This document shows positions 15,601 through 62,213 of a stretch of DNA of 64,000 nt, one piece after another. The notes beneath the pieces are model-generated. The model was given only the letters and a program-made list of their open reading frames with translations, was not told the origin of the DNA and searched no databases. Source of the DNA: Paracyclopina nana (Eukaryota; Arthropoda; Copepoda; Cyclopoida; Cyclopettidae); assembly GCA_019096065.1 (NCBI GenBank), contig JAGUCH010000003.1:2294001-2358000 (forward strand). Reading direction: 5' to 3'. The translations under genes were made by a program, and so were the position numbers. Each line of letters starts with the position of its first letter. The stretch's first letter is position 1.

Positions 15601-18600
15601 AAACCTGGAGATCCTGGACCTCAAGGTGCAAAAGGTAGTGAGGGTCCTCGGGGAGAAGCTGGAGCTCTGGGTCCACCGGGAGAAAAGGGTAAAATTGGCA
15701 CTCCTGGTTTTGCTGGTTACCCTGGAGGACCTGGTGATAAGGGTGACAAAGGCCAACAGGGCAGCGATGGTGTTCCAGGAGCCAAAGGAGAGAGGGTAAA
15801 AGTCAAAGTCACTAGTCTGATCGAATGTACTGTTCAAAACCGTATACGCAAAAAACCGTGCCGTTATATTCCGTTTCGTTATCTTCCGTTCCGTTATATT
15901 CCGTCCCGTTATATTCCGTTCCGTTATATTCCATTCCGTTATATTCCGTTCCGTAAAAATCCGTTTGGTGGGGTAATCTTTTTCTTTAGAAGGTTTGGTG
16001 AGTTCAATTTTAAAAGTTGCTACAGTGATTGCGCAACAGCTATCATGAAACCTTTTCTTTCAAGTTTGGGCTGGTTTGTGCAGGTTTGGGCGAGTTTGTG
16101 CCCAAACTCCTTTTATAGCAGCAATTTCAATGTTTAAGTTGATAATTAAACCACTTCCAATAGGATTTGGAAGCAGAAACTTTATATTTGGGCTCTCCTC
16201 ATCATAAGGGAGCTTTTTGCATTAGAATTTTGAAAATCTAAAGGTTTGGGCGAGTTTGTGTTTTTTAAGTTTATAAGCTAAAAATATCATTTCATGAATA
16301 GTAAAATGGCAAATGGTCTACAAATAGGTTCTGAACCTTGAAAAAACTTGAAAACTTGAAAATCTAAAGGTTTGGGCGAGTTTGGGCGGACAGACTATTA
16401 TAAAGTATTCTATCATTCTTTAAATGACTTTTCAAGGTACTTCCCATTGGATTTGGACATTAAAAATGGTATATTTTTGCTCTGCTAATGCCACTGGATC
16501 TACCTGCATTGAAATTTTTAAGATTAAAAAGTTTGGGCGAATTTGGGCATTTTATATGGTCCCGTTTTTAACTGAGATGATTTATACGGATTTTTACGGA
16601 AGGGAATATAACGGAACGGAATATAATGGAACGGAATTTAACGGAACGGAATTTAGCGGCACGGATTTTTGCGGACACGGATTTCAACAGATATACCGTC
16701 TGATCAATTCATGCTTAAAGAAATAGTTATATAGGGAAGGGACGGAGCCATTGGAGAAAGAGGCCAAACTGGACCCAGGGGATTCAGGGGAAAGAGAGGA
16801 AGAAGAGGAAGCCAAGGGTTTACAGGGCCAAAAGGTGACACAGGGCAACCTGGACCTCCAGGTCCTGTTGGCTCACCTGGTCAAGATGGCCCTGAAGGTC
16901 TCAGAGGCCCCACTGGTGAAGTTGGTGTTCCAGGCATGCCAGGCAAAGATGGTATCAGAGGACCCCCAGGAGAGAGGGGCGCACCAGGCGAAAATGGTCC
17001 ACCAGGACCAACTGGCCAACCAGGTACAATTGGTCCCCCTGGACCTGCAGGAGACACAGGTGCCTCTGGTGAAACTGGTCCACCTGGACCTCCTGGTGTC
17101 CCTGGTGAATCAGGAAGGCCTGGAGAATCAGGCAAAGAGGGCCCCCCTGGACCACTTGGTCCTCAAGGAAAAACTGGTCTCACAGGAACCCCTGGTTTAC
17201 CTGGCTTCCCAGGAGAGAGAGGATTGCCTGGTTTACCAGTAAGATCTTCTTTGACAAAAGTTTTCCTACTACACATGCTCAAACAATAGGGAATGCCTGG
17301 TCTCAAAGGGCAGTCTGGCCCTCCTGGCCCACATGGACCTCAAGGAGATAAGGGTCAGCAAGGAGATGCAGGAAGTGAAGGACCATCAGGACCTGAAGGA
17401 AGAAGTGGACCTCCTGGAGGACCTGGAAGGCCAGGGGAAAAAGGAGAAATTGTAAATATTGCATTTCTTATTTTCACTATAAGTTTAAATCACAAAATCT
17501 ATTAGGGTCTCACTGGATTTCCTGGGCCTACTGGACGAGATGGACTTCCTGGCCGACCTGGGCTTCCTGGACCCCCAGGTCCAATTGGTGAACCAGGTGA
17601 AGATGGAAATAAGGGTGAAATTGGTATTCCTGGAGAAAAGGGCTTTAAGGGCGATAAGGGAGACTATGGTCCTCCTGGTCCAATGGGCTCAAGAGGCCCC
17701 CCAGGAAATAAGGGGGCTGTTGGACCACCTGGAGACAAAGGTCTTCAAGGAGAAATGGGGCGACAAGGAGCAAAGGGTGAAGAAGGCCCAACGGGTGTAA
17801 CAGGACCGCCTGGTCAATCTGGCCCTCAAGGCATCCCAGGACCACCAGGCTTGAAAGGAGAACAGGGTGACTATGGATTGGTTGGTCAACCTGGGCCAGC
17901 TGGTCAACCTGGTGAACCTGGACCAATTGGAGCCAAAGGTGGTGATGGAATTCCAGGCGCTCCTGGCCCTGAAGGCCCTCAAGGAGAAAAGGGAGATCCA
18001 GGAATACCTGGTATCCCTGGCCCCCGAGGAAAAGATGGAGTCCATGTAAGCTGCCCTAGAAACCTCATTCAGAATGTGTGAAAAACCACTTCCTTTCAAT
18101 TAGGGATTGATTGGGCCACCAGGTCCCAAGGGAGAAGAGGGCAAGCCAGGCTTGCAGGGATCACCAGGGCCAAGGGGTGTTATTGGCCCAGAAGGGCCAA
18201 AAGGCAACCCTGGTGCTCCTGGCTTCCCTGGTAATAGAGGTGAGCAAGGTCCCAATGGCATGAAAGGAGAGCCTGGCCAACCTGGAGATGATGGAAAACA
18301 AGGTGACCCTGGCCAACCTGGTGACGCTGGGCCAAGAGGTGATGCAGGTTTGCAAGGAGCCCCAGGAAAGGAAGGCCAGCCTGGACCTCCAGGAAGACAA
18401 GGCAACACAGGTCTTGCTGGTGACAAGGGTGACATTGGGCCTTTAGGACCTCCAGGTCCACCAGGTCCTCCTGGTGAGCAAGGCATTCCTGGAATTGAAG
18501 GTGGAATTGGTCCCAGAGGAAACCCAGGCCCTGCGGGTGATGTAGGAGCTCCTGGCGTATCAGGAAAGCCAGGAATACCAGGACCACCCGGAGATGTGGG

Positions 18601-19840: not shown

Positions 19841-21475
19841 TTTTCTATGTTGTGAATTGTGTACCATGTTAGTTTGTAAGGATTTAATTTTAGTTACGGC
19901 CATTTTTATGTTATTATCTTAGTTAGTAAGGATTTTCATTGCACCAAAACGACTGTTATATAATGCGAAAATATCTGCCACCTTTGTTTACAACTAATGT
20001 TGTCCACAAGTATTCAAGTGCACGAGTACTTACATGATGATCACGTGACTGTCCCCCCTTTCTGAATCTCCAAAGACAATTCAAAAGTATTCATACAGAT
20101 CTCTAGTCTGACTTAAGCTAGTAGCTTTTATGCGTAGAAGTGAGCTCAGATTAGCCCATTGACTCGAGGAATATTGGCAGATGTCATTGGTGCCAACTGA
20201 GAGGTTAGTTGCAATATGCTCAAAAATATCCTTGGATATCATGGAAATTGTGCTTCAAAATTGTGGAATTATGCTCTTAAAATAAACTAAGCACAAAACA
20301 AGTATCGAGCAAGCAAACGAATGATGTCAACAGTCTACTTTCATTTCGGCATACCATAAATGGCTATTAACACCTTTCCCGTTCTTCTCTGGTTATTGTT
20401 TATAAATTAGATGGTATGTAATTTGATGAGCCCAAATCAGAGTACTTCAAATTGGAGCTATTATAAAAAAGTTAAGTTTTAGATTTAATTCCTGCTCATC
20501 ACACTTTCTACGAATGTACTGTTCAAATTCGTATCCGTAAATATCCGTACAGTTAAAATCCGCGTTCCTAAAAATCGGGAGAAGTCACTGTGGCTTAAAA
20601 TAGGGGTAGATTTTTGGATCTACAATCATGGTGAGTTTTACAGCCTACACTTTTTTTGCTATGGGCCTTGAGATCTATAAAGGTTTGGATGCTTAAGCCT
20701 AATAACCTTCTGGGGTTTAAGATCTACATAAAAAGCATCACTTCTTTATACCTAGATTTTAAAATCTAGTTGGCTGGTTTTTTTAGATCTTTAAGCTCTG
20801 AAAAGTGTTTTTAAAAATGAAAAGTGACTTTTAAAAGAAAACTTGCAGGAACCTCAAATTTTCAGATACTCTATTTCTGATGAGACCAAGGATGAGACCA
20901 CAAATTCGCCTCCTCGATTTAGGACAACAAAACAAGAATGAAATTCAAACAAAATTTCCCACTTGCAAAAATGGCTTAAAAATTGCAGTGTATTTAAAAA
21001 AGCGTCGAGCACTCAGCCTTCTAATTTAACTAGTTTTGACCATTATAACTTAACAAGATGGTAGCAAAGCATTACGAAAAGCGGGCCAATAAATGAGCAA
21101 GGCTGCAGAGAATCTTATTTTTGAGCACTTTCCCAACCATTTGGTTGTTTTTAGAATCGAGTGACAGCTTTTTTGCTGATAGCTATAGATCATCTTGGTA
21201 GATCAACAATCAGTTCTTTCAAGCTGTTAATAAAAAGTCTTTTGACAAAGAGATGTAATTTAGCCCAATAATGCGCTCTTTTGTGATGAAAAGAAACCAA
21301 AAATACAATAGAATGATATAGTGATGTGCACATATGTAAATTGTATTCAGTCTATTGTTAAGGGGACTCAAAAGGCTAAGAAAGGGGTTAATTCTTCTAG
21401 CACACCTTTTCAAATAGGAGAACGGCTTACGCATTAACGCAGAAATATGCAGCTGGGAAAATTTGAGCAAAATCC
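19841..21475. other. Intergenic region, about 1.6 kb, with a fragment of the element family
   Basis: AT-rich with no gene recognised. It contains the lone element end D at 20512-20580. No matching opposite end was seen. Confidence 0.5.
20512..20580 (+). mobile_element. Element D: solitary end related to element A
   Basis: It begins GAATGTACTGTTCAAA, identical to the first 16 bases of element A, and continues CGTATCCGTAAATATCCG, in the same style as the A termini. No inverted partner end was found before 21.5 kb, so it is a truncated or solo end. Confidence 0.6.
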
Positions 21476-23705: not shown

Positions 23706-26169
23706 ATGATAAAGCTGCAAAAAGCTGTAACATGCATCCTGATCTTTGCTTTCACTTTTGTCAGTGCTATCCAAGCCAATTGCAAAACGAGTGATGCAAA
23801 ATGGAATGCTGGAAGCAAGCCACTCGTGACCCAACCCTCCAAAACGTACCCAGAAAGAGTTGAGGTCAACTGGGGAGGAATCATCACTAATCAAAGATGC
23901 GCAGACCTATTCTACGTGTTTGCCTGGAAAAATGGCCAAGCCAAAGAGAGGGGACAAAAAATCACCATAACTAACAACACGATTGTGAAGCAAGAGGTCA
24001 TCATTGAGCCTTGCGTTGATTACAACTTTGCTGTGGAATTGGTGGAGAGAGACTGGCTTCGCACAGATGAAAAATTCACAGAGACTGCAAAGTTCAAAAC
24101 TGAGGCCATTCCATCTTTGGCCAGTCAGGACAAAAGCCAATTCATCATGGGATATGGCAAAGATAGGTATGGAAGAGATGCGGACTTGAGCAAAGCTAGC
24201 ATTCGGTTCCACAAGAGCATGATCAAGCACGCCAGTTGCATCAAGCACGTCGAAATCACTGGCGTGATTGACAATAGCCCTCCAAAGCCGCCACCAATTG
24301 GAGGCTCCACTCAATCCAGATCTTTGCTTTTTGGAGGCCTTCGAGGTGTTGGAGGCAGCAGTCAAAATCCAGGATATGGAAACGTTGGAGGCAGCAGTCA
24401 AAATCCAGGATATGGAAACGTTGGAGGCAGCAGTCAAAATCCAGGTTATGGAAACGTTGGAGGCAGCAGCCAAAATCCAGGATATGGAAACGTTGGAGGC
24501 AGCAGTCAAAATCCAGGTTATGGAAACGTTGGAGGCAGCAGTCAAAATCCAGGATATGGAAACGTTGGAGGCAGCAGTCAAAATCCAGGATATGGAAACG
24601 TTGGAGGTAGCAGTCAAAATCCAGGATACGGAAACGTTGGAGGCAGCAGCCAAAATCCAGGATATGGAAACGTTGGAGGTAGCAGTCAAAATCCAGGATA
24701 CGGAAACGTTGGAGGCAGCAGCCAAAATCCAGGATATGGAAACGTTGGAGGCAGCAGCCAAAATTCAGGATATGGAAACGTTGGAGGCAGCAGTCACAGC
24801 CCAGGATACAATCAAGGTAAACATCTAACGTTTAGTACGGAATTCTTGAAGAAGGGCAATTTTAGGAGGATCATGGTCGAGTGGACAGCATATCCTACCA
24901 GACAACCATGGTTATTACAGAAATCCGGATTGCCCAATCGGTGGATCCAACCAGTATCCCAACTATGGCACTTACAACCCAAACTGCTACAGATCCAAGC
25001 CAGGCTACGAGCATAACCACGTGCATGGCAACTCCTACTCAAGGCCTCCCTACGAAAATAACAACAACAACAATATGCAATGGAACCAAAATCGGTACAA
25101 GAGGACCATTGGCAAGGTCTACACATCACCCACCAGTTCGTCATCGTCATCAAGCTATCCATCATACTCCTCCACTTACTCCTCATACCCCAGCCCTCCC
25201 ATTTCCTCGCCCCCAATTTCGAACCCTCCCATTGCCACGCCTTCCCAAACCACAAGCAAGCCAGTGCACGGAGGAGGAAACTACAACACAATTTCTCAGA
25301 AAGTGGAGCCACCCTTCAACAATGAGTTCATTGAAGTCACTTTCCCCATTGAAGCCTGCAAAGGCTACAAGTTCACCCTCAAGGTTATCAGCCCAAGGAA
25401 TGCAGTCATGGGCGAAATCAAGGACCTCGTCATGCCCAGGCTGTCAGAAATGTCCGACTTCCATCCACCTCCAATGTCCAAGGTGTTCAAGGTGCAACCC
25501 AGCACCAGTGCATTTGGGCCAACCATTGTCCTGGATCCAACCTCCGGAATCCCCTCAACTTGTGTTGAGGACTTTCTGCATGCTGTTGACAACCACATTT
25601 CCCACCTTGAGGAAGACCTGGACTTTCACGTGCATCATGAGGACCAGGCCAACCGGAGAGTCAATGACATTGCCACAAATCTGAACTCTCAGCTCAGCAA
25701 GGAAATCAAGGCTTTGGGCTGCAAGTGTGACTCTACGTCAATCAGGTTGAATGGGACCATTTCGACGTACCAAGACTACATGGGAGTCTATCACTACCAA
25801 GGGCTGCATCAGGTGATTCAAAATTGAGCATTGCCAAAAAAAAGTTGTGATGTTATTGGTGCAATATCTTTATAGGACAAGCCCTACTACAAAAAAGTGG
25901 AGCCTCAAATTTTGCTCTTCCCAATGACCAACGGAACTTTGCCCAAGACAGGAAAATTCCTTTATTGGGACAACTCGGCCCACTTTTGGCATGTTGGGCC
26001 CAGCTTTGCTGTGAAAGAGGCCAAATTCAAGGCCAAGAAAGCCACCAATGACAAATGCCCTGCTGACCCCAACAACATACAAGAGTGGACCTATGCGGGT
26101 TCACTCACCTGGCATAACGACCGACACGTGCAGATTGAGTGCATGGATAAAAGTTTCATCGCTATATAA
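23706..26169 (+). CDS. Large secreted protein with GGSSQNPGYGNV tandem repeats
   Basis: Exons 23706-24816, 24866-25812 and 25876-26169 (introns 49 and 63 bp) encode 783 residues. A signal peptide (ending near FVSAIQA) precedes an N-terminal globular region of about 185 residues with several cysteines. Then come 12 copies of a 12-residue repeat and a degenerate 13th, a Tyr/Asn/Pro-rich segment (NHGYYRNPDCPIGG, SKPGYEHNH), and a Ser/Pro-rich stretch with poly-Ser and poly-Asn. A C-terminal region of about 270 residues has a predicted helical stretch (LEEDLDFHVHHEDQANRRVND) and paired cysteines. No family recognised. Repeat composition resembles extracellular structural or adhesive proteins, which is only an inference. 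The 49-bp first intron lies directly after the repeat. Confidence 0.75.
24351..24815 (+). repeat. Coding minisatellite, 36-bp unit, 12 full copies plus a partial
   Basis: Units begin GGAGGCAGCAGTCAAAATCC at 24351 and every 36 bp up to 24783. Copies differ by a few synonymous changes (GGA/GGT, AGT/AGC, TAT/TAC), and two variants alternate in the later copies, as expected from recent unequal exchange. Confidence 0.95.
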
Positions 26170-29819: not shown

Positions 29820-30079
29820 AAGTGGCACAAAAACGCGTGTACTTCAATTCTCAATGGCTTCACTACAAGCCTAAAGAAAAGGGGCCCCCAATCCAGTTTT
29901 TTTGTCCAAGTTATAGAAACTTACATAATACCTACCAAATCAGCCCAACCTGGGCAAGTGGCACAAAAAACGCGTGTGCTTCAATTCTCAACGGCTTCAC
30001 TACAAGCCTTAAGAAAAGGGGCCCCCAATCCAGTTTTTTTGTCCAAGTTATAGAAACTTACATAATACCTACCAAATCA
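29820..30079. repeat. Tandem duplication, about 136-bp period, two copies
   Basis: Sequence from about 29820 (AGTGGCACAAAAA) recurs at about 29956 with few changes, up to CCTACCAAATCAG at 30067-30079. It lies in the intergenic region upstream of ACAD8. The remaining 30.08-30.76 kb shows no gene. Confidence 0.85.
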
Positions 30080-30761
30080 GGTTCTCTAAAATAAAACGAG
30101 CATGCACGTGTCCAAGCCACGAGATCTCCAGGTATATGCTGCTATTCACTAGTCAAGGGAAAAGTACAAGAAACCAGATTTGTAACGAAAATAGCGTTAT
30201 CTACAGTCATTCAACGCAGCCTAAAAATATACGAATCTCAATTTCTTACCTGGCAGAATTCTGAAGATGAATTTCTTTCATTAGCCCTTCCTGATCTTTC
30301 TTTTTACCACATTTCATTTTGGATTCAACGCAATCGTCAAATAAATGAACGAAACTTCATCACAGATATTCGCCAGTACACTCACTTCACTGCACTGAGA
30401 TTTCCGACTATTGAGAACTGAGAACTGAGAAGCCAACATTGCTGACACTGCTCAGCCAAAAAAACTGCGATTAAACTAACTCGATGCCCAAACCGAACCT
30501 ACGATATTAAGGCATTAAGGTACTATTGTCCTATTAATAGATATCAATTCATGGCGAACAATCCTTTGAGGCTCTGAAATGATGACTCAAGAGAAAATCA
30601 TTGAAATTATTTTGCTGAATTTAAATTCCATTCGCGCTTCCCCACTGTATTCTATCGGTCAAATACTAAAAATCGGCTACTTTCGATCCTTTCTGTGTCA
30701 GCTGTTCCAGCTATTCTAATGTTATGAAATGTAAACAGAGTTACGAAAATACATTGTCAAA

Positions 30762-35076: not shown

Positions 35077-35196
35077 TGTTTGCCAGCAACTAGTGAGACT
35101 TGCAAGTGTGCAATATAACGCACTTCAAGTACTACATTGCAAATGTACCTGCCTTGCCTTGAGTTAACATCGTGCGTACAAAAGGGCCAGTTTGAA

Positions 35197-35290
35197 CGTA
35201 TATACAAAAAACCGCACCGTATAGCACCGAAACGCACCCAATAGCAACATAACGCACCATACTAAAAACCGCACCAAAACAAAAATTAAA
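35197..35290 (+). repeat. Left terminal inverted repeat of element B
   Basis: Pentamer-phased: GCACC GTATA GCACC GAAAC GCACC CAATA GCAAC ATAAC and so on. Inverted counterpart at about 49690-49795. Confidence 0.8.
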
Positions 35291-35339
35291 CTAGTAATCA
35301 AATAGAGAAATAGATGAGTTAGGTCAAAAACTCAAACTT

Positions 35340-38300
35340 AACATAACTCAAAAACTTCACTACATGGTGCGTTTGGCTAGAGCCGAAAAACGCGAAAACG
35401 CACTCATAGTAATGAAAACCAGGCTATGAGGCAAAAACTACTTTGAGGCATCTCTAAGTCCAAAAGCTAATTGGACATCATGAGTTAGGTCCCAAGAAGT
35501 CCAAAACTGGTCCTAACTCAAAAACTTCACTACATGGTGCGTTTGGCTAGAGCCGAAAAACGCGAAAACGCACCCATAGTAATGAAAACCAGGCTATGAG
35601 GCAAAAACTACTTTGAGGCATCTCTAGGTCCAAAAGCTGATTGGACCTCATGAGTTAGGTCCCAAGAAGTCCAGAACTGGTCCTAACTCAAAAACTTCAC
35701 TACATGGTGCGTTTGGCTAGAGCCGAAAAACGCGAAAACGCACCCATAGTAATAAAAACCAGGATATGAGTCAAAAATTACTTTGAGGCATCTCTAGGTC
35801 CAAAAGCTGATTGGACCTCATGAGTTAGGTCCCATGGAGTCCAAAACTGGTCCTAACTCAAAAACTTTGCTACATGGTGCGTTTGGCTAGAGCCGAAAAA
35901 CGCGAAAACGCACCCATAGTAATGAAAACCAGGCTATGAGGCAAAAACTACTTTGAGGCATCTCTAGGTCCAAAAGCTGATTGGACCTCATGAGTTAGGT
36001 CCCAAGAAGTCCAGAACTGGTCCTAACTCAAAAACTTCACTACATGGTGCGTTTGGCTAGAGCCGAAAAACGCAAAAACACACCCATAGTAATGAAAACC
36101 AGGCTATGAGGCAAAAATTACTTTGAGGCATCTCTAAGTCCAAAAGCTAATTGGACCTCATGAGTTAGGTCCCAAGAAGTCCAAAACTGGTCCTAACTCA
36201 AAAACTTCACTACATGGTGCGTTTGGCTAGAGCCGAAAAACGCGAAAACGCACCCATAGTAATAAAAACCAGGCTATGAGTCAAAAATTACTTTGAGGCA
36301 TCTCTAGGTCCAAAAGCTGATTGGACCTCATGAGTTAGGTCCCATGGAGTCCAAAACTGGTCCTAACTCAAAAACTTTGCTACATGGTGCGTTTGGCTAG
36401 AGCCGAAAAACGCGAAAACGCACCCATAGTAATGAAAACCAGGCTATGAGGCAAAAACTATTTTGAGGCATCTCTAGGTCCAAAAGCTGATTGGACCTCA
36501 TGAGTTAGGTCCCAAGAAGTCCAGAACTGGTCCTAACTCAAAAACTTCACTACATGGTGCGTTTGGCTAGAGCCGAAAAACGCGAAAACGCACCCATAGT
36601 AATAAAAACCAGGCTATGAGTCAAAAATTACTTTGAGGCATCTCTAGGTCCAAAAGCTGATTGGACCTCATGAGTTAGGTCCCATGGAGTCCAAAACTGG
36701 TCCTAACTCAAAAACTTTGCTACATGGTGCGTTTGGCTAGAGCCGAAAAACGCGAAAACGCACTCATAGTAATGAAAACCAGGCTATGAGGCAAACACTA
36801 CTTTGAGGCATCTCTAAGTCCAAAAGCTAATTGGACATCATGAGTTAGGTCCCAAGAAGTCCAAAACTGGTCCTAACTCAAAAACTTCACTACATGGTGC
36901 GTTTGGCTAGAGCCGAAAAACGCGAAAACGCACCCATAGTAATGAAAACCAGGCTATGAGGCAAAAACTACTTTGAGGCATCTCTAGGTCCAAAAGCTGA
37001 TTGGACCTCATGAGTTAGGTCCCAAGAAGTCCAAAACTGGTCCTAACTCAAAAACTTTGCTACATGGTGCGTTTGGCTAGAGCCGAAAAACGCAAAAACA
37101 CACCCATATTAATGAAAACCAGGCTATGAGGCAAAAATTACTTTGAGGCATCTCTAGGTCCAAAAGCTGATTGGACCTCATGAGTTAGGTCCCAAGGAGT
37201 CCAAAACTGGTCCTAACTCAAAAACTTCACTACATGGTGCGTTTGGCTAGAGCCGAAAAACGCAAAAACACACCCATAGTAATGAAAACCAGGCTATGAG
37301 GCAAAAATTACTTTGAGGCATCTCTAAGTCCAAAAGCTAATTGGACCTCATGAGTTAGGTCCCAAGAAGTCCAAAACTGGTCCTAACTCAAAAACTTCAC
37401 TACATGGTGCGTTTGGCTAGAGCCGAAAAACGCGAAAACGCACCCATAGTAATAAAAACCAGGCTATGAGTCAAAAATTACTTTGAGGCATCTCTAGGTC
37501 CAAAAGCTGATTGGACCTCATGAGTTAGGTCCCATGGAGTCCAAAACTGGTCCTAACTCAAAAACTTTGCTACATGGTGCGTTTGGCTAGAGCCGAAAAA
37601 CGCGAAAACGCACCCATAGTAATGAAAACCAGGCTATGAGGCAAAAACTACTTTGAGGCATCTCTAAGTCCAAAAGCTAATTGGACATCATGAGTTAGGT
37701 CCCAAGAAGTCCAAAACTGGTCCTAACTCAAAAACTTCACTACATGGTGCGTTTGGCTAGAGCCGAAAAACGCGAAAACGCACCCATAGTAATAAAAACC
37801 AGGCTATGAGTCAAAAATTACTTTGAGGCATCTCTAAGTCCAAAAGCTAATTGGACCTCATGAGTTAGGTCCCAAGGAGTCCAAAACTGGTCCTAACTCA
37901 AAAACTTCACTACATGGTGCGTTTGGCTAGAGCCGAAAAACGCGAAAACGCACCCATAGTAATAAAAACCAGGCTATGAGTCAAAAATTACTTTGAGGCA
38001 TCTCTAGGTCCAAAAGCTGATTGGACCTCATGAGTTAGGTCCCATGGAGTCCAAAACTGGTCCTAACTCAAAAACTTTGCTACATGGTGCGTTTGGCTAG
38101 AGCCGAAAACGCGAAAACGCACCCAGAGTAATGAAAAACAGGCTATGAGGAAAAAATTACTTTGAGGCATCTCTGGGTCCAAAAGCTGATTGGACCTCAT
38201 GAGTTAGGTCCCAAGAAGTCCAGAACTGGTCCTAACTCAAAAACTTCACTACATGGTGCGTTTGGCTAGAGCCGAAAAACGCGAAAACGCACCCATAGTA

Positions 38301-41300: not shown

Positions 41301-44201
41301 ACTTCACTACATGGTGCGTTTGGCTAGAGCCGAAAAACGCGAAAACGCACCCATAGTAATAAAAACCAGGCTATGAGTCAAAAATTACTTTGAGGCATCT
41401 CTAGGTCCAAAAGCTGATTGGACCTCATGAGTTAGGTCCCATGGAGTCCAAACCGGGCCCAACAAAAAAACTTTGCTACATGGTGCGTTTGGCTAGAGCC
41501 GAAAAACGCGAAAACGCACTCATAGTAATGAAAACCAGGCTATGAGGCAAACACTACTTTGAGGCATCTCTAAGTCCAAAAGCTAATTGGACATCATGAG
41601 TTAGGTCCCAAGAAGTCCAAAACTGGTCCTAACTCAAAAACTTTGCTACATGGTGCGTTTGGCTAGAGCCGAAAAACGCGAAAACGCACCCATAGTAATG
41701 AAAACCAGGCTATGAGGCAAAAACTACTTTGAGGCATCTCTAGGTCCAAAAGCTGATTGGACCTCATGAGTAAGGTCCCAAGGAGTCCAAAACTGGTCCT
41801 AACTCAAAAACTTCACTACATGGTGCGTTTGGCTAGAGCCAAAAAACGCGAAAACGCACCCATAGTAATAATAACCAGGCTATGAGGCAAAAATTACTTT
41901 GAGGCATCTCTAAGTCCAAAAGCTGATTGGACCTCATGAGTTAGGTCCCAAGGAGTCCAAAACTGGTCCTAACTCAAAAACTTCACTACATGGTGCGTTT
42001 GGCTAGAGCCAAAAAACGCAAAAACGCACCCATAGTAGTAAAACAAGCTATGAGGCAAAAATTACTTTGAGGCATCTCTAAGTCCAAAAGCTAATTGGAC
42101 CTCATGAGTTAGGTCCCAAGGAGTCCAAAACTGGTCCTAACTCAAAAACTTTGCTACATGGTGCGTTTGGCTAGAGCCAAAAAACGCGAAAACGCACCAA
42201 TAGTAATAAAAACCAGGCTATGAGGCAAAAACTACTTTGAGGCATCTCTAGGTCCAAAAGCTGATTGGACCTCATGAGTTAGGTCCCATGGAGTCCAAAA
42301 CTGGTCCTAACTCAAAAACTTTGCTACATGGTGCGTTTGGCTAGAGCCGAAAAACGCGAAAACGCACCCATAGTAATGAAAACCAGGCTATGAGGCAAAA
42401 ACTACTTTGAGGCATCTCTAGGTCCAAAAGCTGATTGGACCTCATGAGTTAGGTCCCAAGGAGTCCAAAACTGGTCCTAACTCAAAAACTTCACTACATG
42501 GTGCGTTTGGCTAGAGCCGAAAAACGCAAAAACACACCCATAGTAATGAAAACCAGGCTATGAGGCAAAAATTACTTTGAGGCATCTCTAAGTCCAAAAG
42601 CTAATTGGACCTCATGAGTTAGGTCCCAAGAAGTCCAAAACTGGTCCTAACTCAAAAACTTCACTACATGGTGCGTTTGGCTAGAGCCGAAAAACGCGAA
42701 AACGCACCCATAGTAATGAAAACCAGGCTATGAGGCAAAAATTACTTTGAGGCATCTCTAGGTCCAAAAGCTGATTGGACCTCATGAGTTAGGTCCCATG
42801 GAGTCCAAAACTGGTCCTAACTCAAAAACTTTGCTACATGGTGCGTTTGGCTAGAGCCGAAAAACGCGAAAACGCACCCATAGTAATGAAAACCAGGCTA
42901 TGAGGCAAAAACTACTTTGAGGCATCTCTAAGTCCAAAAGCTAATTGGACATCATGAGTTAGGTCCCAAGAAGTCCAAAACTGGTCCTAACTCAAAAACT
43001 TCACTACATGGTGCGTTTGGCTAGAGCCGAAAAACGCGAAAACGCACCCATAGTAATAAAAACCAGGCTATGAGTCAAAAATTACTTTGAGGCATCTCTA
43101 GGTCCAAAAGCTGATTGGACCTCATGAGTTAGGTCCCATGGAGTCCAAAACTGGTCCTAACTCAAAAACTTCACTACATGGTGCGTTTGGCTCAGAGCCG
43201 AAAACGCAACGCCACCCATAGTAATAAAAACCAGGCTATGAGTCAAAAATTACTTTGAGGCATCTCTAGGTCCAAAAGCTGATTGGACCTCATGAGTTAG
43301 GTCCCATGGAGTCCAAAACTGGTCCTAACTCAAAAACTTTGCTACATGGTGCGTTTGGCTAGAGCCGAAAAACGCGAAAACGCACCCATAGTAATGAAAA
43401 CCAGGCTATGAGGCAAAAACTACTTTGAGGCATCTTTAGGTCCAAAAGCTAATTGGACCTCATGAGTTAGGTCCCAATAAGTCCAAAACTGGTCCTAACT
43501 CAAAAACTTCACTGCATGGTGCGTTTGGCTAGAGCCGAAAAACGCGAAAACGCACCCATAGTAATAAAAACCAGGCTATGAGTCAAAAATTACTTTGAGG
43601 CATCTCTAGGTCCAAAAGCTGATTGGACCTCATGAGTTAGGTCCCATGGAGTCCAAAACTGGTCCTAACTCAAAAACTTTGCTACATGGTGCGTTTGGCT
43701 AGAGCCGAAAAACGCGAAAACGCACCCATAGTAATGAAAACCAGGCTATGAGGCAAAAACTACTTTGAGGCATCTCTAAGTCCAAAAGCTAATTGGACCT
43801 CATGAGTTAGGTCCCATGGAGTCCAAAACTGGTCCTAACTCAAAAACTTTGCTACATGGTGCGTTTGGCTAGAGCCGAAAAACGCGAAAACGCACCCATA
43901 GTAATGAAAACCAGGCTATGAGGCAAAAACTACTTTGAGGCATCTCTAAGTCCAAAAGCTAATTGGACCTCATGAGTTAGGTCCCATGGAGTCCAAAACT
44001 GGTCCTAACTCAAAAACTTTGCTACATGGTGCGTTTGGCTAGAGCCGAAAAACGCAAAAACTACTTTGAGGCATCTCTAAGTCCAAAAGCTAATTGGACC
44101 TCATGAGTTAGGTCCCAAGAAGTTCAAAACTGGTCCTAACTCAAAAACTTCACTATATGGTGCGTTTGGCTAGAGCTAGAGCTAGAGCTAATTGGACCTC
44201 A
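35340..44201 (+). repeat. 170-bp satellite array, plus-oriented arm (about 52 monomers)
   Basis: The landmark CTACATGGTGCGTTTGGCTA recurs every 170 bp (35361, 35531, 35701, 35871 and onward). Monomers differ by a handful of positions (for instance CTTCACTAC/CTTTGCTAC, GGTCCCAAGAAG/GGTCCCATGGAG, AAACACTAC). A 14-monomer block is duplicated, with copies 35871-38249 and 38250-40628. A few monomers are shortened near 40845, 42030 and 44055. No coding capacity. Confidence 0.97.
35871..40628 (+). repeat. Tandem duplication of a 14-monomer (2379-bp) satellite block
   Basis: Rare variants recur at an offset of exactly 2379 bp: CAAAAACTATTTTGAGG (36452 and 38831), CAAACACTAC (36792 and 39171) and CGCAAAAACACACCC (36071 and 38450). 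Only a few differences between copies were noticed, so the duplication is recent. Confidence 0.85.
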
Positions 44202-44216
44202 TGAGGTCCAATTAGC
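44187..44216. repeat. Perfect 30-bp palindrome at the satellite inversion point
   Basis: The sequence from GCTAATTGGACCTC to GAGGTCCAATTAGC is self-complementary about 44201/44202. Left of it the satellite reads on the plus strand, right of it on the minus strand. It is preceded by a TAGAGC triplication at 44171-44188. Confidence 0.95.
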
Positions 44217-47200
44217 TTTTTGACCTAGAGATGCCTCAAAGTAATTTTTGCCTCATAGCCTGGTTTTTATTACTATGGGTGCGTTTTCGCGTTTTTCGGC
44301 TCTAGCCAAACGCACCATGTAGTGAAGTTTTTGAGTTAGGACCAGTTCTGGACTTCTTGGGACCTAACTCATGAGGTCCAATTAGCTTTTTGACCTAGAG
44401 ATGCCTCAAAGTAATTTTTGCCTCATAGCCTGGTTTTTATTACTATGGGTGCGTTTTCGCGTTTTTCGGCTCTAGCCAAACGCACCATGTAGTGAAGTTT
44501 TTGAGTTAGGACCAGTTTTGGACTTCTTGGGACCTAACTCATGATGTCCAATTAGCTTTTGGACCTAACTCATGAGGTCCAATCAGCTTTTGGACCTAGA
44601 GATGCCTCAAAATAATTTTTGACTCATAGCCTGGTTTTTATTACTATGGGTGCGTTTTCGCGTTTTTCGGCTCTAGCCAAACGCACCATGTAGTGAAGTT
44701 TTTGAGTTAGGACCAGTTTTGGACTTCTTGGGACCTAACTCATGAGGTCCAATCAGCTTTTGGACCTAGAGATGCCTCGAAGTAATTTTTGACTCATAGC
44801 CTGGTTTTTATTACTATGGGTGTGTTTTCGCGTTTTTCGGCTCTAGCCAAACGCACCATGTATCAAAGTTTTTGAGTTAGGACCAGTTTTGGACTTCTTG
44901 GGACCTAACTCATGAGGTCCAATTAGCTTTTGGACCTAGAGATGCCTCAAAGTAATTTTTGCCTCATAGCCTGGTTTTCATTACTATGGGTGTGTTTTTG
45001 CGTTTTTCGGCTCTAGCCAAACGCACCATGTAATGAAGTTTTTGAGTTAGGACCAGTTTTGGACTCCTTGGGACCTAACTCATGAGGTCCAATCAGCTTT
45101 TGGACCTAGAGATGCCTTAAAGTAATTTTTGCCTCTTAGCCTGGTTTTCATTACTATGGGTGCGTTTTCGCGTTTTTCGGCTCTAGCCAAACGCACCATG
45201 TAGCAAAGTTTTTGAGTTAGGACCAGTTTTGGACTCCTTGGGACCTTACTCATGAGGTCCAATCAGCTTTTGGACCTAGAGATGCCTCAAAGTAGTTTTT
45301 GCCTCATAGCCTGGTTTTTATTACTATTGGTGCGTTTTCGCGTTTTTTGGCTCTAGCCAAACGCACCATGTAGCAAAGTTTTTGAGTTAGGACCAGTTTT
45401 GGACTCCTTGGGACCTAACTCATGAGGTCCAATTAGCTTTTGGACTTAGAGATGCCTCAAAGTAATTTTTGCCTCATAGCTTGTTTTACTACTATGGGTG
45501 CGTTTTCGCGTTTTTTGGCTCTAGCCAAACGCACCATGTAGTGAAGTTTTTGAGTTAGGACCAGTTTTGGACTCCTTGGGACCTAACTCATGAGGTCCAA
45601 TCAGCTTTTGGACTTAGAGATGCCTCAAAGTAATTTTTGCCTCATAGCCTGGTTATTATTACTATGGGTGCGTTTTCGCGTTTTTTGGCTCTAGCCAAAC
45701 GCACCATGTAGTAAAGTTTTTGAGTTAGGACCAGTTTTGGACTCCTTGGGACCTAACTCATGAGGTCCAATCAGCTTTTGGACTTAGAGATGCCTCAAAG
45801 TAATTTTTGCCTCTTAGCTTGTTTTACTACTATGGGTGCATTTTCGCGTTTTTCGGCTCTAGCCAAACGCACCATATAGTGAAGTTTTTGAGTTAGGACT
45901 AGTTTTGAACTCCTTGGGAGCTAACTCATGAGGTCCAATCAGCTTTTGGACCTAGAGATGCCTCAAAGTAATTTTTGCCTCATAGCCTGGTTTTCATTAC
46001 TATGGGTGTGTTTTCGCGTTTTTCGGCTCTAGCCAAACGCACCATGTAGCAAAGTTTTTGAGTTAGGACCAGTTTTGGACTCCATGGGACCTAACTCATG
46101 AGGTCCAATCAGCTTTTGGACTTAGAGATGCCTCAAAGTAGTTTTTGCCTCATAGCCTGGTTTTCATTACTATGGTGTGTGTATTCGCGTTTTTCGGCTC
46201 TAGCCAAACGCACCATGTAGCAAAGTTTTTGAGTTAGGACCAGTTTTGGACTCCATGGGACCTAACTCATGAGGTCCAATCAGCTTTTGGACCTAGAGAT
46301 GCCTCAAAGTAATTTTTGACTTATAGCCTGGTTTTTATTACTATGGGTGCGTTTTCGCGTTTTACGGCTCTAGCCAAATGCACCATGTAGTGAAGTTTTT
46401 GAGTTAGGACCAGTTTTGGACTTCTTGGGACCTAACTCATGAGGTCCAATTAGCTTTTGGACCTAGAGATGCCTCAAAGTAATTTTTGCCTCATAGCCTG
46501 GTTTTCATTACTATGGGTGCGTTTTCGCGTTTTTCGGCTCTAGCCAAACGCACCATGTAGCAAAGTTTTTGAGTTAGGACCAGTTTTGGACTCCTTGGGA
46601 CCTTACTCATGAGGTCCAATCAGCTTTTGGACCTAGAGATGCCTCAAAGTAGTTTTTGCCTCATAGCCTGGTTTTTATTACTATTGGTGCGTTTTCGCGT
46701 TTTTTGGCTCTAGCCAAACGCACCATGTAGCAAAGTTTTTGAGTTAGGACCAGTTTTGGACTCCTTGGGACCTAACTCATGAGGTCCAATTAGCTTTTGG
46801 ACTTAGAGATGCCTCAAAGTAATTTTTGCCTCATAGCTTGTTTTACTACTATGGGTGCGTTTTCGCGTTTTTTGGCTCTAGCCAAACGCACCATGTAGTG
46901 AAGTTTTTGAGTTAGGACCAGTTTTGGACTCCTTGGGACCTAACTCATGAGGTCCAATCAGCTTTTGGACCTAGAGATGCCTTAAAGTAATTTTTGCCTC
47001 TTAGCCTGGTTTTTATTACTATGGGTGCGTTTTCGCGTTTTTCGGCTCTAGCCAAACGCACCATGTAGTGAAGTTTTTGAGTTAGGACCAGTTTTGGACT
47101 CCTTGGGACCTTACTCATGAGGTCCAATCAGCTTTTGGACCTAGAGATGCCTCAAAGTAGTTTTTGCCTCATAGCCTGGTTTTCATTACTATGGGTGTGT

Positions 47201-49550
47201 TTTCGCGTTTTTCGGCTCTAGCCAAACGCACCATGTAGCAAAGTTCTTGAGTTAGGACCAGTTTTGGACTCCATGGGACCTAACTCATGAGGTCCAATCA
47301 GCTTTTGGATTTAGAGATGCCTCAAAGTAGTTTTTGCCTCATAGCCTGGTTTTCATTACTATGGGTGTGTATTCGCGTTTTTCGGCTCTAGCCAAACGCA
47401 CCATGTAGCAAAGTTTTTGAGTTAGGACCAGTTTTGGACTCCATGGGACCTAACTCATGGGGTCCAATCAGCTTTTGGACCTAGAGATGCCTCAAAGTAG
47501 TTTTTGCCTCATAGCCTGGTTTTCATTACTATGGGTGTGTTTTCGCGTTTTTCGGCTCTAGCCAAACGCACCATGTAGCAAAGTTTTTGAGTTAGGACCA
47601 GTTTTGGACTCCATGGGACCTAACTCATGAGGTCCAATCAGCTTTTGGACCTAGAGATGCCTCAAAGTAATTTTTGACTTATAGCCTGGTTTTTATTACT
47701 ATGGGTGCGTTTTCGCGTTTTTCGGCTCTAGCCAAACGCACCATGTAGTGAAGTTTTTGAGTTAGGACCAGTTTTGGACTCCTTGGGACCTAACTCATGA
47801 GGTCCAATCAGCTTTTGGACCTAGAGATGCCTTAAAGTAATTTTTGCCTCTTAGCCTGGTTTTTATTACTATGGGTGCGTTTTCGCGTTTTACGGCTCTA
47901 GCCAAACGCACCATGTAGTGAAGTTTTTGAGTTAGGACCAGTTTTGGACTTCTTGGGACCTAACTCATGAGGTCCAATTAGCTTTTGGACCTAGAGATGC
48001 CTCAAAGTAATTTTTGCCTCATAGCCTGGTTTTCATTACTATGGAGTGCTGCTGCTTTTTCGGCTCTACCCAAACGCACCATGTAGCAAAGTTTTTGAGT
48101 TAGGACCAGTTTTGGACTCCTTGGGACCTTACTCATGAGGTCCAATCAGCTTTTGGACCTAGAGATGCCTCAAAGTAGTTTTTGCCTCATAGCCTGGTTT
48201 TTATTACTATTGGTGCGTTTTCGCGTTTTTTGGCTCTAGCCAAACGCACCATGTAGCAAAGTTTTTGAGTTAGGACCAGTTTTGGACTCCTTGGGACCTA
48301 ACTCATGAGGTCCAATTAGCTTTTGGACTTAGAGATGCCTCAAAGTAATTTTTGCCTCATAGCTTGTTTTACTACTATGGGTGCGTTTCAGCGTTTTTGG
48401 CTCTAGCCAAACGCACCATGTAGTGAAGTTTTTGAGTTAGGACCAGTTTTGGACTCCTTGGGACCTAACTCATGAGGTCCAATCAGCTTTTGGACCTAGA
48501 GATGCCTTAAAGTAATTTTTGCCTCTTAGCCTGGTTTTTATTACTATGGGTGCGTTTTCGCGTTTTTCGGCTCTAGCCAAACGCACCATGTAGTGAAGTT
48601 TTTGAGTTAGGACCAGTTTTGGACTTCTTGGGACCTAACTCATGAGGTCCATTAGCTTTTGGACCTAGAGATGCCTCAAAGTAATTTTTGCCTCATAGCC
48701 TGGTTTTCATTACTATGGGTGCGTTTTCGCGTTTTTCGGCTCTAGCCAAACGCACCATGTAGCAAAGTTTTTGAGTTAGGACCAGTTTTGGACTCCTTGG
48801 GACCTTACTCATGAGGTCCAATCAGCTTTTGGACCTAGAGATGCCTCAAAGTAGTTTTTGCCTCATAGCCTGGTTTTTATTACTATTGGTGCGTTTTCGC
48901 GTTTTTTGGCTCTAGCCAAACGCACCATGTAGCAAAGTTTTTGAGTTAGGACCAGTTTTGGACTTCTTGGGACCTAACTCATGAGGTCCAATTAGCTTTT
49001 GGACTTAGAGATGCCTCAAAGTAATTTTTGCCTCATAGCTTGTTTTACTACTATGGGTGCGTTTTCGCGTTTTTTGGCTCTAGCCAAACGCACCATGTAG
49101 CAAAGTTTTTGAGTTAGGACCAGTTTTGGACTCCATGGGACCTAACTCATGAGGTCCAATCAGCTTTTGGACTTAGAGATGCCTCAAAGTAGTTTTTGCC
49201 TCATAGCCTGGTTTTCATTACTATGGATGTGTTTTCGCGTTTTTCGGCTCTAGCCAAACGCACCATGTAGCAAAGTTTTTGAGTTAGGACCAGTTTTGGA
49301 CTCCATGGGACCTAACTCATGAGGTCCAATCAGCTTTTGGACTTAGAGATGCCTCAAAGTAATTTTGCCTCATAGCTTGGTTATAATTACTATGGGTGCG
49401 TTTTCGCGTTTTTTGGCTCTAGCCAAACGCACCATGTAGTGAAGTTTTTGAGTTAGGACCAGTTTTGGACTCCTTGGGACCTAACTCATGAGGTCCAATC
49501 AGCTTTTGGACCTTGAGATGCCTTTAAGTATATTTTTAAATCATAGCCTA
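44202..49550 (-). repeat. 170-bp satellite array, minus-oriented arm (about 31 monomers)
   Basis: Same monomer as the left arm in reverse complement. Distinct variants (CTATTGGTGCG, CATAGCTTGTTTTACTAC) recur at spacings near multiples of 170 bp, for instance 45242 and 46602, which is 8 monomers. The last monomer decays around 49500-49550 into single-copy AT-rich sequence. Confidence 0.97.
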
Positions 49551-49689
49551 GTTTTTACCAAAATTGGTTGCCAAGATTTTCAAGTTTGACAACTCATCAT
49601 GATTTGGATGTTAGATCTTTATTTTCAACCTAGCTATCAATTTTTTTTGCAGACTTTTATGTTCTTTCCAATGTTTAGTTTTGTTTTGG

Positions 49690-49795
49690 GTTTATTGGGT
49701 GCGGTTTTTAGTATGGTGCTATTGGGTGCGTTTCGGTGCGTTTCGGTGCTATTTGGTGCGTTTCGGTGCATTTGGTTGCGGTATTTAGTATGTAC
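49690..49795 (-). repeat. Right terminal inverted repeat of element B
   Basis: Pentamer-phased GGTGC TATTG GGTGC GTTTC GGTGC GTTTC and so on, ending in GCGGTATTTAGTATGTAC. The reverse complement matches the left terminus and the tips of element C. Confidence 0.8.
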
Positions 49796-49992
49796 CCAGT
49801 TTGAATATCCCGCTTCCATCAATGAACATGCTTTCTCATTATTATAACTGAAAACCTCTAAATATTCAACAAAAATGCCATTTAGAAAAATTCCAGTATC
49901 GTCAACTGTCTAATAACACCTTATATTGTTTACATTTTGGGCTTTGGCGGATTTTTAATTTTTGAATTATTATTCAGGCAACCTAACTCTCC

Positions 49993-54023: not shown

Positions 54024-54730
<707 letters not shown>

Positions 54731-58725: not shown

Positions 58726-58970
58726 TCACAACTATGCTATTCATTTGGAATTACGCCAAAGAATTTTTTTAAACTTTCATTCCTCAAGATTAAGTAGCCT
58801 TAAAATTGACAGACTGCTCGCAATCGTGGATGGTGTTCAAATTCGATCTTCGATTGTGTCAGCTGACGAGAGAGGCCAAGCCAAACGTAAAGCAACAAAA
58901 TAAAAAAAGTTGCGTAAGGCTCCGAAAAGGTCGCGAAACTGAAGTGGGTCAAAAGTTGCCCTCGGTAAGC

Positions 58971-60366: not shown

Positions 60367-60600
60367 CTTGATTGTCAAGCTCATAACATGCCCCTTTCAG
60401 CTCCAGAATCTTGACCTTTTTATTTCTGCTTTATTAGAAAATCAACAGCATTAAAAATAAAAATCGCAAAATACATTAAAAATTATCAGAATCATAAAAA
60501 TAAGATGGGCGAAAATAGAGGGCGAAACGCCCTGACACCGGATTGAGTCGTTTAGCTGATATTGTATGGGTCCAAAGGGCAATTTTATTAAAGTTGGAAC

Positions 60601-62213
60601 ATGGGCAGACTGTTTTTAGTGATTGCTATTTTGGTAGTGGCTGCCTCAAATATGGGAGCAGCGAATACCAATGGTGTACTTTCTCACATCCCGGAAAGTA
60701 GAGAGGTAAAGTTTTACTTCCACGAAACGTTGTATCAATTTATAAAAGTTCTTTTTCTTGACCCAGAATGAAATTCACGAGTACGCTGCCTTATATTCGA
60801 GTTTTCCTCCACCCTTGAGCAGCGAGGATCACGAGGCTTTAGATGAAGGCTTAAAAGCTGATTCTTGCGGATGTACTCAAGTACTCGTTTCATCACTTGG
60901 TGGTGCGCAAACGTACCAGCATGGTAAAAAACCACTTTTTAGCCGCATATACTAAATACCGCACACAAACGCAACGCAACGCAACGCGACCAATATACTA
61001 AATAACGCTCACAGCGGTATTTTGTATATTAGTCGCGTTGCGGAACCGGACTATAGCAGCTTTTTTCTTTTTTAAAGCATGTTTGAAGAATTATTTTGCT
61101 GCTTTTTTTCAAACAAGTATTTGTTCACTTTGTGTGCAGTATTTAGTATTTAAACACTAAGTACTGCACACACAATTTTGAGTCAAAATGTCAATTGAAA
61201 CAGATAATTTGAGGCAACTAGGCGCTAAATGTGAGGCAAAGTCAAACTTTTGACCCATTTTGAATTCACAAGAGCCAAAACTTACGCATCTCGTTATACT
61301 ATTACATAACTAGTAAGAAAACTCGAAATTCTTGACTAGAGCAATTTTGAGTCAAAATGTCAATTGGCACGGATTATTAGTTAATTGACATTTTGCCAAA
61401 ATACGTATCAATTTAGAAAATCAACTCAAAGTGGCTTGTAAATGCCATACTATGACTTTCTGATGCTTTGCAGGTTAGCCAATTTTGGATTCAAAATGTA
61501 CCCTCTTTCATCCAATTTCATCCTTTAATTGTCATTTTACACCAATTTGTGCATAAATGCTATTCAAATTATCTGCTTCCTCCATTATAGATACACAGTT
61601 ACTTTAATTTGATTAATTCAAAACTATATTTAGTGTGCGGTATTGAGTAGGCAAACATAGTAAATACCGCACTCACTTAAAAAACGACAATATAGACAAA
61701 AACAAAAATAAATTCTAATTGGCTCTCAGATTCGCACATTCCATTCATGCTTAACAGTGTTTCTAGCCACTATTAAATATTTTGTGTTATCCTCCAGCCA
61801 GTTCAGTTAAATTAGATCATTGATGTAATATAATACGTGAGCGGTATTAAGAAGTGTGCGATATTTAGTAGTGTGCGTTGCGTTGCGTTTGTGTGCGGTA
61901 TTTAGTATTTATCCTTTTTAACGGGGGTATTTAATGATACATCTCGGATTCTGATATTACAGACTCATTGGGGGTGTACAAATATTATCAGCTGTATAAC
62001 AACCACCCATCCTACTTTGGTCCTGGTAACAGGCGCCTGTATTTCTTGTTCAACTCCGGTTGGTTGCTCGGACCTACTCTCGGGAACCCTTCTGGATACA
62101 TCCATAACTCTAACCAGTACCAGTGCCCGTATTTGGTGCCAAATGGCTGGATGTATGTCAACAGTGGCTACTGGTACACTGATGACTCTTTGGTGGTCAG
62201 ATGCATTGCATGA
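60601..62213 (+). CDS. Secreted protein with YKYY...RYLYF-type domain, paralog 1
   Basis: Exons 60601-60705, 60767-60923 and 61963-62213, 170 residues. A signal peptide (MGRLFLVIAILVVAAS) and a short acidic linker are followed by a domain that starts with CGCTQVLVSS and continues SLGVYKYYQLYNNHPSYF, RRLYFLFNSGWLLGPTLG, CPYLVPNGWMYVNSG and DDSLVVRC. The same domain forms most of the C-terminal half of the next gene. Similar Tyr/Trp-rich extracellular domains occur in many invertebrate secreted proteins, but I know no functional name. Intron 2 (1039 bp) is enlarged by element C. Confidence 0.75.
60942..61913. mobile_element. Element C: 972-bp foldback-like element in intron 2 of paralog 1
   Basis: Direct repeat CTTTTTA at 60935-60941 and 61914-61920. 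The ends share a perfect 35-bp inverted match beginning ATACTAAATACCGC (left from 60949) and continuing into CAACG pentamers. The left arm contains a near-perfect hairpin, 60980-61009 against 61013-61042. The core carries CAATTTTGAGTCAAAATG-type units at 61173, 61342 and (diverged) 61480, spacings 169 and 138 bp. Removing the element plus one target copy leaves a 60-bp intron, against 58 bp in the paralog. No transposase ORF. Confidence 0.75.
60980..61042. repeat. 30-bp-arm hairpin inside element C
   Basis: Arms 60980-61009 and 61013-61042 are inverted with a 3-nt loop; mismatches are few. It includes CGCAACGCG and its complement CGCGTTGCG. Confidence 0.8.

Follow-up and report, generated by a model that had tools for sequence, protein, structure and literature searches.

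Non-autonomous foldback elements of Paracyclopina nana probably move through MULE transposases and spread satellite arrays

The 64-kb stretch of Paracyclopina nana DNA analysed here (termed the window; coordinates refer to it and, unless the reverse strand is named, to its forward strand) contains elements A, B, C and D, which are in all likelihood non-autonomous foldback elements, mobilised in trans by MULE transposases, that carry cargo and spread satellite arrays (probability about 0.8). A preliminary description of this DNA had recognised mobile elements with subrepeat inverted ends linked to satellite arrays, which is borne out, and the tips and target duplications are reproducible at other insertions genome-wide, with 8 bp in A and 9 bp in B and C. 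The single family to which all four had been assigned is not upheld. The material comprises instead at least an A/D family (8-bp duplications), a B/C family (9-bp), a family termed F (9-bp) that is nested in A, and a RING-MULE family. In particular, A does not display the B/C ends it was thought to share, the likeness at AAAAAACCG being short.

Element B (35197-49796) is a 14.6-kb foldback element of which ~96% is 170-bp satellite. It is bordered by an exact 9-bp target duplication, CAGTTTGAA (35188-35196 and 49797-49805), and its arm tips consist of 10-bp-phased subrepeats on the left (35197-35290) and 10-bp subrepeats on the right (49700-49796, reverse strand). The 5-bp phase was reached in 0 of 1000 shuffles for both arms, and the signal is stronger at 10 bp. 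The satellite is arranged as ~51 units on the forward strand (35344-44061) and ~31 units on the reverse strand (44198-49557), with an inversion junction at 43805-44415. The array is itself inverted and so lies largely within the arms; the earlier layout stands as regards an element with a flanking repeat, its end now placed at 49796, while the array is not a core between arms. The eight B-type elements fetched with both ends range from 5.1 to 18.2 kb, and all of them present exact 9-bp duplications, that of window B identified by repeat search and the other seven read off the flanks.

The ends of window B and of the B-type copy at C2:7737764-7755970 are identical over 331 and 337 bp, and the two insertions have different target duplications, CAGTTTGAA and GCCACAAAC, respectively. 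Both contain one and the same inversion junction with its shortened unit (611 bp, 96.6%), and 15 of the 27 C2 units have an identical counterpart among the 51 units of window B. Only the junction and the unit kinds are common to the two arrays; no B satellite was found in the C2 copy at three sampled 400-bp points between 7740000 and 7746400, and it is therefore not a plain copy of window B. The same junction and identical ends, combined with different duplications and flanks, argue that the array already existed before these copies separated. As judged from sequence, the satellite array probably moved together with the B element, which suggests that satellite blocks can travel as transposon cargo. 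An alternative in which short elements inserted first, each copy then expanding its own array on the spot and no element ever moving together with its array, is unlikely. Array sizes do vary from copy to copy, the recurrence of identical kinds of unit within an array makes it clear that exchange takes place, and gene conversion between copies could in principle spread a junction, but independent growth sits poorly with one junction and its shortened unit at two different sites bearing different duplications.

Element C (60944-61913) presents the ends of B, confirming the common tips proposed for the pair, and the B/C left end occurs genome-wide far above chance (128 vs 0). The ends of C were placed by those of the family, and its putative target duplications, read by eye as CTTTTTAGC (60935-60943) and CTTTTTAAC (61914-61922), are alike in 8 of 9 bases; none was listed for window C in a search for exact flanking repeats. 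Exact 9-bp duplications are present at nine of 16 C-type loci, and six of the 16 have no duplication at the family's ends. The interior of C contains two head-to-head tip palindromes (61136-61167 and 61637-61670), a feature observed in 15 of the 16 loci. A tandem core of 169/138 bp had been assigned to C; spacings of 169 and 139 bp are indeed found, but the core comprises just a single 169-bp unit followed by the beginning of another (~1.2 units, 61173-61378). The 5-bp phase is not significant in the C arms (272 and 511 of 1000 shuffles), and the 5-mer-phased inverted arms attributed to all elements are thus borne out for A and B and not supported for C.

Element A (15823-16697), a non-autonomous member of the MULE family with 8-bp duplications, has the ends GAATGTACTGTT and GGTATATCTGTT. 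It keeps the coordinates originally given and has an exact flanking repeat, GTCTGATC at 15815-15822 being identical to 16698-16705. Its left arm (15823-15966) is built of 15-bp subrepeats, each equal to three 5-mers, while the right arm occupies 16586-16697 on the reverse strand, and 0 of 1000 shuffles reached the 5-bp phase of either. The A left end is found genome-wide far above chance (79 vs 5), the RTACTAAATACCGCAC tip gave 247 occurrences against 0 for the reversed pattern, and 8-bp target duplications border all 11 copies fetched with both ends (ten exact, one with one mismatch). D (20512-20576), rightly said to have its tip in common with A, is a lone A-type left end, for which the 64-kb window yielded no right end flanked by a matching repeat. 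The window also holds a reading frame for a collagen bearing a COLFI domain, which points to animal DNA; neither RNA families nor tRNAs were found in it.

What had been taken for the tandem core of A is a truncated copy from a different family, an F remnant extending from 16048, an approximate limit set by the start of F matches, to 16563. The left end of this remnant is missing and its right end, ...GGGCATTTTATATGGTCCC, lies at 16563. The core period of ~160 bp claimed for A holds in part, the repeats being spaced 160/126/161 bp. The F insertion site in A, GTTTTTAAC (16564-16572), is occupied in four A copies and empty in seven. Two copies of F were fetched with both ends, and each is bordered by an exact 9-bp duplication; the F ends were counted at 61 vs 0, with pairs of them lying about 0.5 to 7.8 kb apart. 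In the F arms the phase is strongest at 10 bp, the 5-bp test being reached by 52 of 1000 shuffles; as to other arms, those from C6 are not significant at 5 bp and those of the C2 relative were matched by 9 and 192 of 1000 shuffles.

A transposase-bearing relative, expected to be hAT- or P-like, was located for the A family, and its transposase is a MULE. A 19,326-bp copy with A ends and an exact 8-bp duplication contains MULE (PF10551, E 4.5e-8) and OTU protease (E 4.3e-8) domains, which places the A family in Mutator and not in hAT or P. All five matches in the MULE family search were above the curated cut-off. The transposase of the 19.3-kb copy (contig C7) is broken by nested retroelements. 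Segments of this copy are present in short A copies, namely 474 bp at 89% from the transposase 5' end in L019 and L020, 265 bp at 97% from the region beside the OTU frame in L017, and a 119-bp stretch of the OTU frame at 91% in a copy on contig C1. By these sequence matches, several short A copies are deletion derivatives of the 19.3-kb MULE/OTU element. A 1,644-bp relative on contig C2, with ends GAATGTACAG/GGTATATCAG and an exact 8-bp duplication, encodes a MULE domain within a 415-aa frame, to which a second locus is 100% identical across 316 residues, one stop codon excepted. The frame is without the NN..E motif, and the FLYWCH finger that marks the Phantom subclass (PF04500) had no match in this protein at E up to 1; PF04500 is present in P0001, its best relative. 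It is very improbable that the foldback elements are hAT-like or, in the manner of Galileo, P-like. The foldback arms are reminiscent of Galileo and the 8-bp duplications of A would fit hAT or P, but the MULE inside an A copy refutes either origin for A, and the duplications of B, C, F and the RING-MULE are 9 bp long, in place of the 8 bp sought for hAT in B/C and F.

No transposase was found in B, C or F by tblastn of five proteins against the window and 42 loci, which include 16 C-type sites (window C counted), window B, L004-L008 and L028 for F, with interiors fetched for at most one of the seven other B elements; matches occurred only in A copies L017-L021. The place of B, C and F in Mutator is thus inferred from their duplication length and build. 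A MULE at C5:6359907 was rejected as the B/C source, because the B/C-type left end nearby is situated 0.9 kb beyond its limits and faces away from it; the region examined contains no partner B/C end, allowing up to two mismatches. The RING-MULE displays an open 537-aa frame between subrepeat arms and an exact 9-bp duplication, and its protein has a 34% relative in the glass sponge Oopsacas minuta. Among at least 120 relatives listed for one gene of the window, most of them without a name, glass sponges do not appear by name.

It is very improbable that the two near-identical B copies reflect segmental duplication instead of transposition. Co-duplication, or nesting in another repeat, does occur in the B family, because the B-type left ends L077 and L078 (contigs C4 and C6) have flanking sequence in common. 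In contrast, window B and the C2 copy each have their own exact 9-bp duplication, and comparison of the window B flanks (588 and 595 bp) with those of C2 (164 and 180 bp) revealed nothing above chance (best E 0.24). Elements of the Helitron type (HINE/Pearl), known from bivalves and carrying tandem repeats internally, resemble the present ones in core units of ~160 bp and have a negligible chance of accounting for them: neither Helitrons nor Pearl-type elements are known to have inverted ends or target duplications of this kind, whereas inverted ends and 8-9-bp duplications are present here, making the Pearl-type model suggested earlier a poor one.

A common ancestral core of the satellite units was rejected, there being no clear likeness among those of F (in A), B and the 169-bp satellite. 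The observed score was reached by 29 of 300 shuffles for B/F, 32 for B/169-bp and 169 for F/169-bp, and by 106 and 13 of 300 when the C6 unit was paired with B and F, respectively; these tests used the 169-bp unit as it occurs in L044 and C6, and not the one in element C. When units were compared with arms, 0 of 300 shuffles reached the score of the F unit against the F arms (31 positions alike in a 38-bp stretch). The B unit against the B arms gave 4 and 3 of 300, but with the left arm of C6, to which it is unrelated, the figure was likewise 4 of 300, while the 169-bp unit (L044) against the C arms gave 216 and 135 of 300. At the 169-bp/243-bp array loci L042-L044 the best 9-bp repeat is the same word at all three, within a repeated context; L048 is cut at its left arm.

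In the mechanism proposed, A, B, C and D would be non-autonomous cut-and-paste elements of foldback build, whose arms, as ladders of short family-specific subrepeats, probably provide repeated transposase binding sites. A MULE transposase acting in trans would recognise the outermost ends, generating duplications of 8 bp (A) or 9 bp (B, C, F), and the DNA between these ends would be free cargo, be it MULE/OTU deletion remnants, the F element nested in A, or tandem units. The 170-bp units of B may have grown into the inverted array by unequal exchange or a similar process, and B would then have moved with the array inside, which for two insertions is supported by the common array junction. Transposition would thereby spread satellite arrays through the genome. 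The 169-bp unit is found in arrays elsewhere and singly in a MULE element of C6, and the arms that enclose it are of at least three kinds. More tentatively, and at rather less than even odds, foldback MULEs may be exchangeable satellite carriers, in which units that arise in a family or enter it are amplified to inverted arrays, moved whole and passed between families with unrelated ends, such that the satellites dispersed in this compact genome would be transposon cargo and not independent arrays.

Both foldback MULEs, such as Tm1, and satellites that originated in foldback elements, such as Tetris, have been described before. Tm1 of root-knot nematodes is a Mutator foldback element with 13-15-bp tandem subrepeats and 9-bp duplications, and similar to the present families it has a MULE transposase in one copy class, non-autonomous classes, and short asymmetric motifs at its two extreme ends (PMC3169594). 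It differs in its subrepeats, and A departs from it in its 8-bp duplications and its OTU gene; satellite-filled copies, present here, do not appear in the portion of the Tm1 account considered (PMC3169594). Tetris/DAIBAM of Drosophila virilis, a foldback element with 8-10-bp duplications whose ~220-bp arm units gave rise to satellite DNA (PMC4079207), precedes the combination of subrepeat arms and tandem repeats that the preliminary description took to be new. The Tetris unit and outer arm are alike over 37 bp (~80%), comparable to the 38-bp likeness of F unit and F arm, and, in the portion considered, Tetris is without a known transposase, unlike the A family (PMC4079207). Its authors proposed that larger arrays may have disrupted transposition (PMC4079207), whereas here a long-array element seems to have moved. 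Plant MULEs with multiple TIRs likewise contain extra ends in their interior and rely on the outer ones for movement, but the extra ends are mostly tandem (PMC3310237), while the C-type internal ends form head-to-head palindromes. In the Xenopus MITEs Xstir and miDNA4, tandem repeats ride on, are captured by and grow in non-autonomous elements, as here; miDNA4 is Tc1/mariner, and long inverted arrays moved whole are absent from the part of the account considered (PMC12628747). Cnidarian MuDR-6_HM is a MULE with an OTU gene, like the 19.3-kb A copy, and a Ghost MULE has a RING finger frame (PMC6446971), where here RING and MULE occupy one frame. The foldback arms of Galileo have internal repeats, as here, and its transposase is P-type, unlike that of A (PMC3169594, PMC4079207).

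The dispersal of satellite DNA is an old question, for which Tetris offered a foldback birthplace of units and left open the mobility of elements with long arrays. A junction common to two sites with different duplications indicates that long-array elements probably can move, so that the question can be put to the test in a genome of small size. With several parallel families bearing different arms in one host, the rise, exchange and export of satellite units become comparable.

Elements A (15823-16697), B (35197-49796) and C (60944-61913) and their flanking direct repeats lie where the preliminary description had placed them, apart from small shifts. The tips it had read as family marks recur across the 92-Mb genome (10 contigs, here C1, C2 and so on; loci outside the window carry L numbers), all three patterns well above reversed or control counts: RTACTAAATACCGCAC gave 247 matches vs 0 for the reversed pattern, the B/C left end 128 vs 0 and the A left end 79 vs 5 (≤1 mismatch for both ends), while element A as query returned 179 matches. 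Flanking duplications also recur at other insertions, measuring 8 bp in the A family and 9 bp in B/C elements.

B and C have common ends (left CGTATATAC, right GGTACATAC) and 9-bp duplications. Among 16 C-type loci (window C, L022-L027 and L052-L060), nine present an exact 9-bp repeat at the family ends and six none, and in window C 8/9 bases match by eye; internal head-to-head tip palindromes were counted, without a shuffled control, in 15/16 (≤3 mismatches per tip). The B-type set comprises window B and seven further copies with both ends, six partnerless ends (L064, L077-L081) being excluded. The largest is C2:7737764-7755970 (18.2 kb), and the other six, of 5.1 to 11.4 kb, are C5:4711560-4716628, C3:9302297-9308006, C5:5749363-5757145, C4:6154541-6164419, C1:12482765-12494119 and C6:3757434-3767252. 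All 8/8 carry exact 9-bp duplications, each different, those of the seven further copies being read from their flanks. At least five of these seven contain matches to the 170-bp B unit, namely the one on C2 and, at about 80% identity, those on C3 and C6 and the two on C5; none appears in the C4 or C1 copy among the matches listed. One more B-type copy lies near C7:3034535, outside the duplication count. The partnerless left ends at C4:8055250 (L077) and C6:1883430 (L078) have about 60 bp or more of flank in common and are thus probably nested in another repeat or co-duplicated.

Window B is ~96% satellite, 8.7 kb of plus-strand units (35344-44061) preceding 5.4 kb of minus-strand units (44198-49557). 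Its ends match those of the C2 copy without a difference over 331 of the 421 bp compared on one side and over all 337 bp on the other, the two have different target duplications, and no likeness was detected in the flanks compared. Both contain the point at which the array turns over and a shortened unit (611 bp, 96.6%), and 15/27 units of the C2 plus-strand array have an identical counterpart among the 51 window units. Since junction and units are shared while flanks and duplications are unlike, the inverted array would predate the separation of the two copies, unless gene conversion spread the junction, and the B satellite seems to have moved together with its element. The C2 copy is longer than window B; three 400-bp samples between 7740000 and 7746400 lacked B satellite, and it therefore encloses other DNA. 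Because array lengths differ between the copies, growth or loss of the array continued after they separated.

The A family is Mutator. Although a hAT- or P-like transposase had been suggested, the 19,326-bp A copy on C7, interrupted by retroelement frames judged gypsy-like by eye, holds instead a MULE domain (PF10551, E 4.5e-8), along with an OTU protease domain (PF02338, E 4.3e-8). In the window copy and 10 further copies sampled with both ends, 8-bp duplications flank constant end positions in 11/11, ten exactly and the C4 copy with one mismatch. The ends are asymmetric (GAATGTACTGTT vs GGTATATCTGTT), as are the outer motifs of Tm1, a foldback MULE of root-knot nematodes, in passages of PMC3169594. 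Short A copies derive by deletion from the C7 element: L019 and L020 each match the transposase 5' end (474 bp, 89%), L017 the DNA beside the OTU frame (265 bp, 97%) and a 554-bp C1 copy the OTU frame itself (119 bp, 91%), with protein-level matches also in L017-L021. In L021 (C7:1038600-1041000) a 15-bp arm subrepeat has expanded to ~40 copies, estimated from match spacing; an A-family arm can thus become a minisatellite. Another A copy (L009-L011, C4:7122800-7149000) encloses a retrovirus-like LTR element, recognised by eye from the same frames at both ends and several long frames between. A relative on C2 (1,644 bp, ends GAATGTACAG / GGTATATCAG, exact 8-bp duplication) has subrepeats differing from those of A; its open 415-aa frame encodes a MULE domain and lacks the NN..E motif. 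A second genomic place is 100% identical to its protein over 316 residues except for one stop, which suggests recent movement.

The tandem core formerly assigned to A is part of another element, F. It matches arrays of the F family, whose ends (GGGACCATATAAAATGCCC) were found 61 times vs 0 in the control (≤2 mismatches) and whose copies at C1:4480826-4483641 and C9:4213222-4214539 bear exact 9-bp duplications (TTTGAAGCG and, read off the sequence, AATTTTTAC). Within window A, 16563 is the last base of the right F end, and GTTTTTAACTGAG comes next. This junction is also present in the C4 copy, L015 and L016, giving 4/11 A copies at four sites, whereas the site is without F in the C1 and C7 copies and L017-L021 (≤2 mismatches throughout). 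F thus inserted into an A element and lost its left end, and that A lineage then spread.

The 169-bp unit of C (61173-61366) forms tandem arrays elsewhere (L042-L051), occurs once inside an element at C6:2031069-2036817 (5,749 bp, exact 9-bp duplication GATATACCT), at 73-87% to single units of those arrays, and in L048 is flanked by inverted arms that contain a 30-bp subrepeat. A single unit is therefore enclosed by arms of at least three kinds (C, C6 and L048), which may reflect capture, nesting or descent; nesting occurs among these elements, as shown by F in A. Compared with one another, the F, B and 169-bp units show no clear resemblance, the observed scores being reached in 13 to 169 of 300 shuffles. 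In the C6 element the arms consist of 25-29-bp subrepeats, and an open 537-aa frame encodes MULE and RING domains together with the motifs DGTF, ADFE and NNG.ES, which are marks of the MULE catalytic triad. At C6:2031723-2033333 (L034/L035) the RING finger is C-terminal in the open MULE frame, and MULE and a RING-type domain stand together in 16/22 public relatives listed for it. Loci L042-L047 and L049-L051 are composite, 169-bp arrays adjoining 241-244-bp or 73-bp arrays; the 169-bp arrays are inverted in L042-L044, and L042-L045 contain 25-bp subrepeats (TGACCACTCACTGATGGCCAAAAAA). A further foldback-like repeat is represented by palindromes at C2:6669627-6671411 (~1.8 kb, arms ~670 bp, 97% alike) and, more diverged, C5:6362678-6364216 (77-79% to the C2 arms). 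The window also holds a 36-bp coding minisatellite (24348-24808, ~13 units, 94% matches) in an open frame encoding GGSSQNPGYGNV repeats, and a 137-bp unit (29820-30080, 1.9 repeats, 96% matches).

Subrepeat inverted ends combined with tandem cores and satellite expansion had been considered undescribed, but published work already covers Tm1, a foldback MULE whose arms consist of subrepeats, and Tetris of Drosophila virilis, a foldback element that is a source of satellite; passages of PMC12628747 review tandem repeats riding on MITEs. Sections of PMC6446971 likewise record a cnidarian MULE with OTU, as in the A family, and a Ghost MULE with a RING frame, as in the C6 element. Searches of an open-licence library listed no description of these families, nor of long inverted satellite arrays being carried to another site by a MULE. 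Observed directly are the ends and duplications, MULE domains in the A family and the C6 element, the short copies derived by deletion, one family nested in another and the common array junction. Arrays would grow by unequal exchange, perhaps starting from arm sequence: F unit and F arm have a common 38-bp stretch with 31 positions alike (0/300 shuffles), the B unit resembles its arms weakly (4 and 3/300), and no more closely than it does the C6 left arm (4/300), and the 169-bp unit showed no likeness to C arms by the same test (300 shuffles). The arm subrepeats may serve as additional binding sites, a case made for Galileo in PMC4079207, and B, C and F would be mobilised in trans by a MULE.
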